Source: Pseudogemmobacter humi (lineage in GTDB: Bacteria; Pseudomonadota; Alphaproteobacteria; Rhodobacterales; Rhodobacteraceae). From it: a stretch of DNA of 48,901 nt. The notes under the pieces are model-generated. The model was not told where the DNA came from. It did not search any database and saw nothing but the letters and a program-made list of their open reading frames with translations. Both the position numbers and the translations under genes were made by a program. Below, piece by piece: positions 5,624 to 25,707 of the stretch. Numbering within the stretch: position 1 is the first letter of the stretch; each line of letters opens with the position of its first letter. The stretch spans positions 1 to 48,901 of the forward strand of contig NZ_UXAW01000031.1 in the NCBI RefSeq assembly GCF_900609055.1. Direction: 5' to 3'.

Positions 5624-6014
5624 TGGCTAAACAATTGCTTGCGAAAAGTGCTCTGCCTCCCAACTCTGGCGCGCCGGATACCGGAGTTTTCCGGCCTGGT
5701 TATGGCGACGGGCTGGCTGGGTCGCGGGGATAATGCAGGGCAATCGGGACGTTGTATCCGATTTATAATGACCCGGCGGAACCTGCTCAGGTTAAGCCGC
5801 TAATCTGAATTCCTTTGCCGGGGTACGCATTGCAAGCGCCTGATGAGGGCGACTGGCGTGCCATGTTGGAAAAGCTCTCCGATGCGCTCTGGCCGCTCTG
5901 CGGACGTCATCCGGGCCTGGCGGTCGCGATCCGCGAGATGGAAGTCATGCCACCGGCTGCAATCCGGGGTTCGCCAAGCGGTCGCACAGTTGCAATCCGA
6001 AGGCTTCCGGCTGG
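5624..6014. other. No intact gene; probable decayed mobile DNA
   Basis: The 391 bases after the LuxR-type gene hold only short open frames with no recognisable product. A small CCGGA-GTTT-TCCGG hairpin near 5680 could end the regulator transcript but lacks a clear T-run. The stretch leads into transposase remains and is probably part of the same decayed element. Confidence 0.4.
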
Positions 6015-6325
6015 AGTCTGACACCTGGTGCAGACAAGGGCTATGATGCAGCAGAGTTCGTGACCGACCTGCGCCAGGCCTGCGTCACTCCATATGTCGC
6101 ACAGAAGTCGCGTTGCTCAGCAATCGACGGGCGCACATCCGGCACAAGGGCTACGCCCTGTCCCTCAGGCACCGCAAACGGATCGAAGAAGCGTTCGGCT
6201 GGGCCAAAACCAACGGAGAGGCCGCCCGAACCGCCTTCCGCGGCATCGAGCGCGCACGGGCGCGCTTCATTATGACACTGGCCGCAGGAAATCTCGCCAG
6301 ACTGCCAAAGCTGCTCGCCGCATGA
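6015..6325 (+). pseudogene. DDE transposase C-terminal fragment (IS5/IS1182-like)
   Basis: From 6015 one frame reads SLTPGADKGYDAAEFVTDLRQACVTPYVAQ and continues to SAIDGRTSG; after a frameshift near 6145 the frame open from 6113 reads HKGYALSLRHRKRIEEAFGWAKT and ends ARLPKLLAA. The blocks GADKGYDA (Asp) and RIEEAFGWAK (Glu) are the second and third parts of the DDE triad of transposases annotated as IS5/IS1182 family. The N-terminal half is missing. Not functional. Confidence 0.7.
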
Positions 6326-6429
6326 ACAAAAAATGGCGAAGCGGCAGCCAAAGCAGATGCGCAAACTCAACTCCTGAGAGAGTATGGAACAATGTTCTCG
6401 GACCGGGACTAAATCAGCACCCTGCTAAA

Positions 6430-6773
6430 CCCCGGCCCATGCCGTGGTCGCCTGGATCGACGCCGCAGGACTGAGCTCCGGCCCTCTGTTCCGGCGCATC
6501 ACCCGACACGATACCCTCGGCAGGAACCGGCTCTCGGCCGCCGGTGTCGCTGAAATCCTGCGGAGGTTGTTGCGCGACGCGGGCCTGCCAGAAGACTTCG
6601 CCTCGCCGCAGGGGCTGCGCTCCGGGTTCTTGCCCCAGGCCGCGCAGGACAGAACCCCGCTGCTGGCCGCGATGAAGCTCTCACTGCACCGCTCTGCACA
6701 GCAGGCGCAGAAATACTATGCCGATGTCGAGATCGCCGAAAACGCCGCGACAGGTCTGTTCGAGAAGCGATAG
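6430..6773 (+). pseudogene. Tyrosine recombinase/integrase C-terminal fragment
   Basis: About 110 codons encode the end of a phage-type integrase: PLFRRITRHDT, then GLRSGFL (catalytic Arg), SLHRSAQQAQKYYADVE (His/Arg box and Tyr). The frame is closed upstream by TAA at 6426, and no N-terminal core-binding domain is present. A GTG at 6444 could start translation but the product would lack the first catalytic Arg and most of the catalytic fold. It marks a lost integrative element. Confidence 0.7.
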
Positions 6774-6817: not shown

Positions 6818-7213
6818 TCAAGCGAATGGATTCACGATCCGGACCTGCCCTTCAACCTGAAGGCCATCCTGCATGTCCTCTGTCCAAAGAGTCGTGCAAC
6901 CCGCGATCAGTGCGGCGGAAACGATCATCGAATTATAGATCGAGAATCCGTACAGCTCGGCCAGGGCTCGCCCCACCTCATGCGTCTGTGGGGTGAGATC
7001 CTCCACCGAACACAGGGCCCGGACGCCTGTCAGGAAGGCATCCGCCTCTTCCCGGCTGAGACCGGCCTTGCGGTGGCAGTTTACCAGCGCCTCATTCAGC
7101 ACTTGCACACTGATGTGGGGCCGTTGCGCAAGAATCGCCTCGGCGGGGTCCGCCTTTGGGCTGTCGTCCAGAAGGTAGAGAACAACATTTGTATCGGCGA
7201 ATTCAACGCTCAT
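6818..7213 (-). CDS. vapC: VapC-like PIN-domain toxin, one acidic residue changed
   Basis: A 131-residue PIN-domain protein starting at the ATG at 7213, which overlaps the antitoxin gene by 11 bases. PIN ribonucleases of VapBC modules cut tRNA or rRNA using four acidic residues. Asp7 (FADTNV), Glu41 (LNEALV) and Asp113 (TEDMQDG) are in place, but the position usually held by Asp in the block Y-D-x-x-I-V-x-A-A is Asn94 (YNSMIVSAA, codon AAT). A single G-to-A change would explain this. The toxin may be weak or inactive, although the fold is complete. The pair lies among mobile-element remains, a common place for plasmid-type toxin-antitoxin modules. Confidence 0.85.
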   Translation of the reverse strand: MSVEFADTNVVLYLLDDSPKADPAEAILAQRPHISVQVLNEALVNCHRKAGLSREEADAFLTGVRALCSVEDLTPQTHEVGRALAELYGFSIYNSMIVSAALIAGCTTLWTEDMQDGLQVEGQVRIVNPFA

Positions 7214-7430
7214 GCACGTCGTCACGGCTCAATCGCCTGTCAGCTGGCAGCCTGCCCCGCAAGCTGCGCAGACTTTCCAGCACCTCATGTGCACGCAGCT
7301 GGCGCCGAACGATGAACGCCCCGTCGCCTTTCACGAGATCAATCTGATCTCCTTCCTTCAGGCCTGGCTCACGGATGAGTTCCATGGGCAGACGGACGGC
7401 AAGGGAGTTGCCCCATCTCGCAATCTGCAT
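7203..7430 (-). CDS. vapB: VapB/MazE-like AbrB-fold antitoxin
   Basis: A 75-residue protein with an N-terminal SpoVT/AbrB swapped-hairpin DNA-binding domain: MQIARWGNSLAVRLPMELIREPGLKEGDQIDL. The C-terminal tail, rich in Arg and Asp, would bind and block the PIN toxin encoded just downstream. The ATG has AGGTGAG a few bases upstream. Antitoxin first with a short overlap is the standard autoregulated layout, and the AbrB domain probably represses the shared promoter in the 80 bases before 7430. Confidence 0.85.
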   Translation of the reverse strand: MQIARWGNSLAVRLPMELIREPGLKEGDQIDLVKGDGAFIVRRQLRAHEVLESLRSLRGRLPADRRLSRDDVHER

Positions 7431-7509
7431 CTCTCACCTTCGACGTTTGGATATACAATACTGAATGTATATCAATACTCAGGGCAGATGCAGGACTCCT
7501 ATTGCAACG

Positions 7510-8003
7510 CCCGATCAGCACCATGAAGTTGCGACGACAATAGCCTCCCAGACCTTCGACATTCCCTTTGTCGTTGCCCATGCCCTGGCGGCCGTAGCGA
7601 TCCCGGACCAGGGAATGCGACAGGAAGCCGCTGAACAACTCCGCCCGCTTGCGGGTGCCATCCGGCAGGATCTGCGCCACCAAGCACCGGTCATTGTCAT
7701 AGACGATCGACTGAGGGAACGCCCGGAAGAAGGCAAAGGCATGGATGTGGCCGTCCACCCAGGCCTTGGCCACCGCCGCAGGGCAGGCCCGCACATGGCA
7801 GGCGTCGCTGTGCGGCAGGTCCAGCACGAAGAAGGAGGCCTTCTGCTCGACACCGCCAATCCCCACCAGCGCTTCGCCGAAGTCGGCCTGCGCGGGCCCC
7901 GGAGGAAGCGACAGCGGCACGAACACTTCCTGCCCACGCCGTTCCCGCGCCCGGATGTAGTCCTGATGATCGTGTGGCCGCCGGTGAAGCCACGCTCAAC
8001 GGG
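7510..8003 (-). pseudogene. istA: IS21-family IstA transposase fragment
   Basis: Read leftwards, GFTGGHTII begins after an in-frame TAA at 8004-8006, a one-base deletion near 7958 shifts frame, and then EVFVPLSLPPGPAQADFGEALVGI, SIVYDN and GNDKGNVEGLGGYCRRNFMV follow. These are the catalytic core blocks of IS21 IstA (Asp in ADFGEA, Asp in YDN, Glu in VEG). Similarity stops near 7510, just before the vapB promoter region. Both ends of IstA and all of IstB are missing. Confidence 0.8.
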
Positions 8004-24210: not shown

Positions 24211-24235
24211 TGATCTGCTGCCGGTTTTGTGGACA
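24211..24235 (+). repeat. IS3 left terminal inverted repeat
   Basis: Begins TGATCTGCTGCCGGTTTTG and is the exact reverse complement of 25683-25707. Preceded by the target duplication TGG at 24208-24210. Confidence 0.9.
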
Positions 24236-24273
24236 CGAAGATGAGATCGTGCCCAGGGAACCGGAGAGTGGAT

Positions 24274-24597
24274 ATGACGAGACGGAAGTTCAGCCGCGAG
24301 TTCAAGATCGATGCGGTGAGGCTGGTGACGTATGAGGAGGATCAGGAATTGATCCGGGGGATCAATTCCCCGACGAATGGGGGCGTAGCGATAGCGCAGG
24401 CGGCCCGTGACCTTGCCGTTGCGGCGAGCGTGCTGCGCCGCTGGATGCGGGAACGGACCACAACCCTGGCCACAGCTTTCCCCGGGAACGGGCAGATGCG
24501 GGCCGGTCTGTCCGAGATTTCGGCTCTGAAGAAAGAGGTCGCCTGGCTCCGGGCGGAGCGTGACATGCCTCGAAGAAAGCCGCAGCTTTTTTCGCGC
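24274..24597 (+). pseudogene. IS3 transposase OrfA with an in-frame insertion and 3' frameshift
   Basis: ATG 24274 follows GGAGAGTGGAT. The product begins MTRRKFSREFKIDAVRLVT, the helix-turn-helix of IS3 OrfA, continues QAARDLAVAASVLRRWMRE and GQMRAGLSEISALKKEVAWLRAERD, the leucine-zipper part. Between VRLVT and GVAIAQAARD about 17 residues (YEEDQELIRGINSPTNG) replace the usual two or so; this DNA contains a perfect 11-base inverted repeat at 24345-24369. Near 24568 two extra bases shift the frame, so the OrfA end (normally DILKKAAAFFA) is read as MPRRKPQLF. Confidence 0.8.
24345..24369. repeat. Perfect palindrome inside an insertion in IS3 orfA
   Basis: GGAATTGATCC, three G, then GGATCAATTCC: an 11-base perfect hairpin within the in-frame insertion at about 24331-24380. 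A shorter hairpin of similar sequence, CCGGATC-AGGA-GATCCGG, occurs in another insertion at 25007-25024. Confidence 0.7.
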
Positions 24598-24613
24598 GCG
24601 TTTGAGGCTGATT

Positions 24614-24631
24614 GCGCCATTGGTTCGAGCG
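24614..24631 (-). repeat. Short dispersed repeat, copy 1
   Basis: On the minus strand CGCTCGAACCAATGGCGC; it contains the 15-base core CTCGRACCRRTGGCG. It lies in extra DNA (about 24598-24645) between orfA and orfB of the IS3 element. Its closest relative is copy 3, in opposite orientation, with 17 of 18 bases equal. Confidence 0.75.
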
Positions 24632-25178
24632 ATCTGCCGAAAGAACATGAGGTTCGCCTTCATTGCCAAACAGCGCCACATCTGGCCGGTCAGCTGGCTC
24701 TGTGAAGTTCCTGAGGTTTCGCGGTCCGGCTTTCATGCCTGGCTCAGCCGCCCACCCGGCACCCGCGAGGTCCATGATGCGAAGCGCGTCGCAGCGATCG
24801 GGACGGGCTTCAGGATCAGCAACCGGACCTGTGGCGCCCGCCGCGTCTGGCGCGATGTCCTGGCGGAAGGACTGGCCGTGCGGAGTTCACCGGATCGAAC
24901 GGCTGATGCGGACCGGGGCCTTGCGGGCACGCCCCAGGCGTCGGGGAAAGCCGGGGGATGATGGGGAACGGTCGGTGATCGCTGAGATCGAGCCGGTGAC
25001 CGCCACCGGATCAGGAGATCCGGCGAGGCTCGAGCGGACCTTCCAGGCCGACAGGCCGAACCAGAAGTGGCTGGCCGATTTCGCTGCGCGGACCTTCGGT
25101 TCACCTGCATCTGGACCGCGGAGGGCTGGCTTTACGTCGCAGTCGTGCCGGACCTCTTTTCCCGGCCCTCGTTATGGG

Positions 25179-25196
25179 CCTCGAACCAGTGGCGGC
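25179..25196 (+). repeat. Short dispersed repeat, copy 2
   Basis: CCTCGAACCAGTGGCGGC, core CTCGRACCRRTGGCG, inside an insertion of about 44 bases that interrupts the orfB codons for DLFSR and VGWSM. Downstream TCCATGGCTCGAT is partly shared with copy 4 (CCCATGGCCCG). Confidence 0.75.
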
Positions 25197-25281
25197 TCCA
25201 TGGCTCGATGTGGGCTGGTCCATGAAGGCTGATCGGGATGCCTCACCGGTGATGGACGCGCTGATGATGGCGGTCTGGCGG

Positions 25282-25299
25282 CGCTCGAACCGATGGCGC
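25282..25299 (+). repeat. Short dispersed repeat, copy 3
   Basis: CGCTCGAACCGATGGCGC, core CTCGRACCRRTGGCG, inside a 36-base in-frame insertion in orfB. The insertion is bordered by GGCGGCG on both sides (25277-25283 and 25312-25318), which looks like a duplicated target. Confidence 0.75.
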
Positions 25300-25456
25300 T
25301 GCCCCGCTCAGTGGCGGCGCGGGAAGGCCGACGCTCTCTTGCATCACCCGGACCAGGGATCGCAATATACAAGCGAGCAGTTTCAAAGGCTTCTGGCCGA
25401 CAATGGCATCACCTGCCCGATGAGCCGCGCGGGTAACGTCTGGGATCGGGCCATGG

Positions 25457-25474
25457 GAACGCCACTGGTCCGAG
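25457..25474 (-). repeat. Short dispersed repeat, copy 4
   Basis: On the minus strand CTCGGACCAGTGGCGTTC, core CTCGRACCRRTGGCG, within an insertion of about 42 bases between VWD and SAMESFF of orfB. GCCATGG and CCATGGC flank it as an inverted pair (25450-25456 and 25478-25484 region). Confidence 0.75.
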
Positions 25475-25682
25475 TGACCATGGCGAGGTCCGCGATGGAG
25501 AGCTTCTTCTCAACGCTGAAGACCGAACGGACAGCCATTAAGGTTTATCGCACTCGCAATGAAGCACGTGCCGATGTCTTCGACCACATCGAGCGCTTCG
25601 ACAACCCGCGCAGGAGGCATTCGAAACCGGGATACCTCAGCCCAATGGAGTTCGAGCTCCGTGCTGTGCCAGCTTAACCTGC

Positions 25683-25707
25683 TGTCCACAAAACCGGCAG
25701 CAGATCA
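25683..25707 (-). repeat. IS3 right terminal inverted repeat
   Basis: Exact reverse complement of 24211-24235, ending in CA and followed by TGG at 25708-25710. Confidence 0.9.

Follow-up and report, generated by a model that had tools for sequence, protein, structure and literature searches.

The 48.9-kb window considered here, the whole stretch of DNA that was analysed, is contig C78 of a draft genome of 4.47 Mb in 143 contigs, and it raises the question of what has riddled one of its insertion sequences (IS) with short extra pieces. Small palindromic repeats are common in bacteria, and for many of them we know of neither a mobiliser nor a target rule. The element in question is a degenerate IS3-family copy on the forward strand (24211-25707; 1497 bp), delimited by perfect 25-bp terminal inverted repeats (24211-24235 and 25683-25707) that were found by a BLAST self-match of the ends and a sequence check, and recognized by alignments and by the Pfam HTH_Tnp_1 and rve-type domains in its frames. 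It was aligned with relatives from named plasmid records (P. yeei, P. aminophilus, P. seriniphilus, Ancylobacter and Bradyrhizobium), with copies from four genomes of the host genus (G004, G010, G001 and G012), and with two partial copies of the host genome itself (C23 and C84). At the DNA level, 1255 bp of the P. yeei copy match the window IS3, and 1242 bp of the G004 copy align to 1498 query bases. The initial annotation, made from the sequence alone, had proposed at least six extra pieces representing a small palindromic element that inserts repeatedly, and had called for alignment with intact relatives and a search of the genome. Both bear the proposal out. The alignments contain insert-sized gaps at seven places where a relative covers the site and is empty (about 45, 39, 36-37, 20, 38, 36 and 39 bp for inserts 1 to 7), and copies occur elsewhere in the genome and in relatives, the full unit also in other genera. 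Five of the seven pieces belong to one hairpin family (family A), one belongs to a second (family B), and a 20-bp piece lies outside both.

Insert 1 (24331-24379, minus strand) is a family B hairpin, CATTCGTCGGGGAATTGATCC CCC GGATCAATTCCTGATCCTCCTCATA, assigned from the other members of its family and from the 45-bp gap in relatives, the gap itself spanning 24327-24371. The family A copies were scored with a covariance model trained on 34 copies, two of which come from the window (24986-25030 and 25444-25490). Insert 2 (24600-24644, minus), a hairpin with the core CTCGAACCAATGGCG, lies outside the training set and scores 30.6 bits (E 2e-5), while insert 3 (24986-25030, minus), with the mutated core CCTGATCCGGTGGCG, is a training member that was also found by an ends-only pattern and scores 47.7 bits. 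Insert 4 (25083-25102, plus) is the 20-bp piece, evident as a gap in the relatives covering its place; it gives no match to the family A model and resembles neither family. Inserts 5 (25165-25210, plus; 58.6 bits, E 1.3e-12) and 6 (25272-25313, plus; a degenerate hairpin with the core CTCGAACCGATGGCG; 25.1 bits, E 5e-4) are both outside the training set, and insert 7 (25444-25490, minus; 55.7 bits), a training member, adjoins the SAMESFF motif. The four cores that the annotation had reported are present, at 24615-24629 (minus), 25180-25194 (plus), 25284-25298 (plus) and 25460-25474 (minus). It had also likened the pieces near 24345 and 25007 to one another; both are indeed hairpins, but the latter is family A with a mutated core and the former is family B, a second family dispersed in related genomes, so that the notion of a single repeat family does not hold. 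Beyond these five copies, the rest of the window has no match to the family A model at E <= 0.01. Further transposase-like stretches of the window, at 1-1300, 5851-6500 and 7151-7800, are among the DNA free of family A matches.

The occupancy of these places differs among IS3 copies. Inserts 1 and 2 are common to the window IS3, C23 and C84, and the G001 copy is also filled at inserts 2, 3 and 7 and has a family B piece close to where insert 5 lies in the window. The site of insert 7 is filled in G010 as well, and empty in C84, G004 and P. yeei, with a net difference of +39 from G004. The G004, G010 and P. yeei copies lack insert 6; C84 is uninformative there owing to deletion of the left flank, and it lacks the region of inserts 3 to 5. 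Inserts 4, 5 and 6 were not found in any compared IS3 copy that covers their places. Because inserts 2, 3 and 7 are common to copies from other species, part of the load appears to be inherited; as far as the alignments tell, the window IS3 combines insertions passed down with its lineage and insertions of its own, and recombination among IS copies may contribute to this patchwork.

Family A measures about 44 bp and consists of CCTC-GCC and a stem arm, the 15-nt core CYYGAACCRRTGGCG, and a second stem arm followed by GGC-TCGAT; the covarying stem begins GCC/GGC and encloses the conserved core. With no more than one mismatch, the core occurs 47 times in the host genome against 8 occurrences of the reversed pattern, and in most genuine-looking copies it lies between two mutually pairing arms that differ from copy to copy. 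Across a catalogue of 123 loci, some of which are chance matches to the core or repeats of a site, an element's own arms pair with a mean of -12.8 kcal/mol, as against -7.5 kcal/mol (sd 0.23) when arms are swapped, and none of 2000 shuffles was as low. At the 5′ tag CCTC predominates (C 40, C 41, T 48 and C 52 of the 52 with letters), although these counts cover only those sites, 53 of 66, at which CCTCGCC and GGCTCGAT could be anchored, and are thus biased towards CCTC. The 3′ tail is TCGAT, its last two positions being A in 42 and T in 38 of 53. When the ends alone were used as the query (CTCGCCN{22,34}GGCTCGAT), hairpin copies bearing the same or a near core were recovered among many unrelated matches, which argues that the core is conserved and not an artefact of its use as bait.

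Two main forms of family A are recognized, a transposase-type form (CCTC-GCC ... GGC-TCGAT) and an intergenic form flanked by a GC-rich hairpin on one side and a GGGATATTTNNNGACAGAAAATGA-like tail on the other. The stem covaries in both. In the transposase-type form the covariation score is 0.440 against 0.164 when shuffled, with a maximum of 0.129 for slid alignments (34 copies, from 36 listed rows), and in the intergenic form it is 0.470 against 0.160, with a slid maximum of 0.197 (31 copies, from 33 listed rows). In the 34-copy set, shuffles are exceeded by the paired percentage, by the cells that change on both sides and by the covariation score, whereas two-sided changes affect 5 stem positions, no more than in shuffles (mean 5.3). 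The left arm also pairs with its own core in an element-specific manner (-12.8 versus -11.5), and a second fold of the left arm with the core is possible. As the preferred fold in place of pairing with the right arm, this competing hairpin was rejected, as it covaries weakly (0.097 against 0.083 shuffled, with 8 of 500 shuffles as high).

Tails of the GGGATATTTNNNGACAGAAAATGA type are themselves dispersed throughout the host genome (G000), with 101 matches at up to one mismatch where the reversed control gives 0; they often face each other in pairs some 40 bp apart (for example L014:1906-1971 and L061:1155-1223), and intergenic family A hairpins lie directly upstream of them. In a third arrangement, seen at L009:2056, L011:2062 and L012:2004, the core with GATGCAGG/CCTGCATC-type arms sits in the loop of a GGGGG-CCCCC hairpin that is followed by a similar tail.

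The second family is built differently. Family B hairpins read CGTC-G, a stem arm of 10-11 bp, a loop of three, the opposing arm and TGATCCTCCTC, and their stems differ among copies yet pair. There are 32 matches in nine of the 13 genomes of the genus, and all three in the host genome belong to this IS3. Sixteen of 18 distinct sequences lie in transposase-like DNA, a share that is biased upward because the loci were partly fetched via nearby family A.

Family A is dispersed well beyond the window. Under stricter filters, its covariance model matches 26 of 60 genomes at E <= 0.05, comprising 12 of 13 genomes of the genus (the host included), 14 of 23 from other genera of the family, and none of 24 from other families of the class. 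The exact sequence CTCGAACCRRTGGCG is present in 21 of the 60 genomes, the host again included, and a 43-nt query matched 24 plasmid records, all from Rhodobacterales genera by name. A scan of one genome per species gave at least 116 stretches with family A; among the 80 titles listed for these, 74 name Rhodobacterales, and the remaining six are metagenome-assembled genomes that bear other or vague names. A second riddled IS3, with four family A copies on one strand, occurs in another genus of the family (L208:1501-2323, in G034). In one genome of the set, G007, four separate stretches of IS3 sequence (L180, L181, L182 and L183) contain one and the same family A element, and three of the four yield the same neighbouring translation. 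These repeats in G007 suggest that filled IS copies multiply with family A as a passenger.

Filled and empty sites can be paired in IS3, IS5, IS110 and IS21, and the manner of insertion can be read from 19 pairs. The net gain is narrow, falling between +36 and +42 bp in 17 pairs and between +37 and +39 in 13, with a mode of 38; the two remaining pairs (net 27 and 56) look misplaced and were retained in the counts. In the cleanest pair, L161 and L230, the flanks are about 94% and 100% identical and the net gain is +38, which can be read as 44 bases replacing six. More generally, about six bases of the target seem to be exchanged for the element. Classical transposition, with its duplicated target, was rejected, as no consistent duplication is seen among the 19 pairs; the TGGCGGCGC that flanks one window insert, taken by the initial annotation as a possible duplication, is thus no rule. 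Nor do the pairs uphold the in-frame habit it had suggested by analogy with Rickettsia. Net lengths are a multiple of three in eight of 19, close to the expected one third, +38 being the commonest, and selection for reading frame was rejected on this count. A contrary case is L208, where two family A copies apparently lie in phase within an open frame of 249 codons whose rve domains are preserved.

One target, in IS5, is known from several genera. Its empty form is approximately TTGATSCC-GGTGCT-GTCGAYCAG, the first base of the six being variable; as a target, the site can be written TTGATGCC-GGTGCT-GTCGA. Filled copies keep both sides and have the element in place of GGTGCT or a near form; the right junction is alike among them and the left varies by about one base. 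If the six bases are indeed lost, even an exact excision would fail to bring them back, and empty copies would not be reversals. Some sites adjoin conserved transposase motifs (for example LIDSTG, HSDQGSQ and SAMESFF), and the right flanks favour T at +2 (31/53) and A at +8 (32/53). The same two positions recur in a second, overlapping set (30/70 each), and the preference is weaker after related right flanks are merged (16/41 and 15/41).

Family A resides in transposase-like DNA. When about 300 bp on either side of each site were compared by BLAST with 28 transposase-type and 38 other proteins, a transposase matched the flanks of 49 of 66 merged sites of the transposase-type form and the other proteins matched none of the 66, as against four and nine, respectively, of 183 background tiles from the same genome. 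Among 37 intergenic-type sites one matches a transposase (L050, probably misclassified) and one another protein. The wider scan, among the matches listed, comprises 122 elements in 116 stretches, or 71 sites after merging. Here, again among the matches listed, transposases match 49 of 71 sites against 38 of 838 tiles taken from the same stretches at least 1 kb from an element, and other proteins match none of the 71 against 48 of the 838. When one frame from each of the 22 unmatched sites was searched, Pfam added 11 (two of them below the Pfam cut-off) and NCBIfam, with 10 peptides, a further three IS481 fragments, below that model's whole-protein cut-off. Among the matches listed, 63 of 71 sites are therefore transposase-like, although these additions were made for sites only and the like-with-like comparison is 49/71 versus 38/838. 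The remaining eight include fragments resembling a chemotaxis protein, a phage capsid and, weakly, MarR. The 66-site and 71-site sets overlap in some genomes, and sites are partly dependent, since several can lie in a single IS copy and only the similarity of left flanks was used for merging. The families matched include IS3, IS5, IS21, IS66, IS110, IS1182, IS481 and a Mutator-type transposase, among others.

It is likely that this residence reflects a choice of target, beyond survival alone. The opposing explanation is that family A comprises ordinary REP- or RPE-like palindromes that insert anywhere, the bias arising because copies elsewhere are purged while IS genes are dispensable and numerous. 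IS genes do tolerate breakage, and a few family A copies adjoin other genes, namely the chemotaxis, phage capsid and MarR-like fragments. Intragenic units are, moreover, already known in REP and RPE families (PMC3733652). Intergenic DNA is tolerant as well, yet only the one intergenic-type site of 37 matches a transposase, against 49 of 66 for the other form; the two forms also differ in their ends, and one IS5 site has apparently received the element repeatedly, at junctions that are almost the same. We accordingly consider purging alone to be unlikely as the source of the bias.

The history of that IS5 site also bears on a more conservative account, in which each IS lineage received one ancient insertion that was then inherited, or spread with the IS or by gene conversion, with little or no fresh insertion. 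Such an account would explain why inserts 2, 3 and 7 are common to copies across species and why several genomes hold repeated filled IS copies, as with the fourfold element of G007. On a flank tree of 21 of 25 IS5 rows (L291, a doubtful row, and L344, L368 and L297 having been dropped), filled and empty copies are however interleaved, requiring at least five changes (four to six in bootstraps), of which strongly supported branches alone force two. Grouping all filled copies together is rejected (p-AU 0.0037), although the filled copies are partly clustered, with 36 of 500 shuffles as low. On this tree the site has been reused, and inserts 4, 5 and 6 of the window are absent from all compared copies that cover them. 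Recombination between IS copies could mimic part of both patterns; even so, inheritance with little fresh insertion appears improbable as a full account.

We regard it as highly improbable that family A functions as an RNA hairpin, for instance in termination or processing, and has reached IS genes only as a by-product. The position of intergenic copies between a GC-rich hairpin and the dispersed tail, together with the conserved loop and covarying stem, would suit such a role. At the 21 sites where both flanks match one transposase, however, the element lies opposite to the frame in 13 and along it in eight, and Rfam covariance models at gathering thresholds give no match to the element in the window or five loci, the only match in these six sources being a tRNA in L008, away from the element. 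Furthermore, copies in IS genes alter the length of the sequence, for which a process of insertion is needed. The idea that the extra pieces are ordinary coding sequence, or duplicates that arose locally within the window IS3, is refuted by the empty intact relatives and by the presence of the core and the full unit at other places of the genome and in further genera, and it retains practically no probability.

Family A is therefore best described, and probably so, as a non-autonomous mobile hairpin that replaces about six bases, prefers transposase genes, reuses sites and rides with the IS that it enters. Its conserved parts are the 15-nt loop core and the two ends, CCTC-GCC and GGC-TCGAT, while the stem varies freely in sequence and keeps its pairing. 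Conserved ends and core around a free but paired stem look like the recognition elements of an enzyme that reads structure, as is the case for hairpins moved by single-strand transposases. An enzyme acting in trans might thus recognize the hairpin through its core and ends, perhaps as a single strand, and insertion would swap out about six bases of the target, preferentially in the transposase genes of many IS families, with some sites hit repeatedly. Copying of the host IS would carry the hairpin along as a passenger. The IS3 of the window would then be a dead copy that gathered five family A hairpins, one family B hairpin and one further piece. With regard to the mobiliser, no Y1/RAYT transposase (PF01797, E <= 0.001) was found in the 13 genomes of the genus, mostly drafts, as against five positives among 14 control genomes, and mobilization by a RAYT gene of the genus was rejected on this basis. 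We infer, as the simplest case, a trans-acting recombinase of a non-Y1 kind.

Taken further, family A may be a hyperparasite of IS or a weapon of the host against them. A hairpin of about 44 bp, moved by some enzyme to preferred sites in transposase genes, would swap about six bases such that precise undoing is precluded, would often break the frame, and would ride on IS that are themselves mobilized in trans. This extension is tentative, and we think it doubtful. If the preference for transposases is real and goes beyond survival, it would represent a natural brake on IS that is smaller than any transposon gene, and a recombinase not yet described may stand behind it. Both mobility and target choice are testable in family A, given its sharp boundaries, its covarying stem, the small spread of its net gain, its recurrent sites and its narrow host range.

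Several known systems resemble family A in part. The small dispersed repeats of cyanobacteria are very small mobile repeats with hairpin potential; they differ from family A in phylum and in sequence. Searches of the PubMed Central open subset yielded no paper that we recognized as describing family A, and a passage of PMC12306157 names no relevant genera. MITEPye1 of Paracoccus yeei is likewise non-autonomous, forms a stem-loop and occurs in the same bacterial family, but it is described with IS1182-like terminal repeats and target duplications (PMC11578231), whereas family A follows no duplication rule. The GTAG REP/REPIN elements share with family A the character of a non-autonomous hairpin with a short tag (PMC3733652). 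Unlike those mobilized with RAYT, family A has no GTAG tag, and no Y1 transposase was found in the 13 genomes of the genus.

Rickettsia palindromic elements are also palindromes inserted within genes and are thought to be mobile, and they are described as lying in frame within likely functional genes (PMC3733652). In contrast, family A has no excess of in-frame lengths, 13 of its 19 net gains being +37 to +39. The closest superfamily is that of the CGTC-tagged REPs (BMC Genomics 2013, PMC3733652), short palindromes of which many are found in alpha-proteobacteria. As that source describes them, they have an unpaired 5′ tag, CGTC with the variants TGTC and CCTC, include intragenic units and have no known dedicated transposase; its main text nowhere mentions Rhodobacter, Paracoccus, Roseobacter or Ruegeria. 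Family A is similarly a short palindrome with a CCTC tag and intragenic units. The CGTC-tagged units, however, have a stem of 8-9 bp with AT first, a loop of 4-5 and a tail that is mostly CCA (PMC3733652), whereas family A has a conserved loop of at least 15 nt, a stem that begins GCC/GGC and the tail TCGAT. Finally, the associations of the CGTC-tagged units with transposases are described as few and fortuitous (PMC3733652), whereas family A sits in transposase genes.
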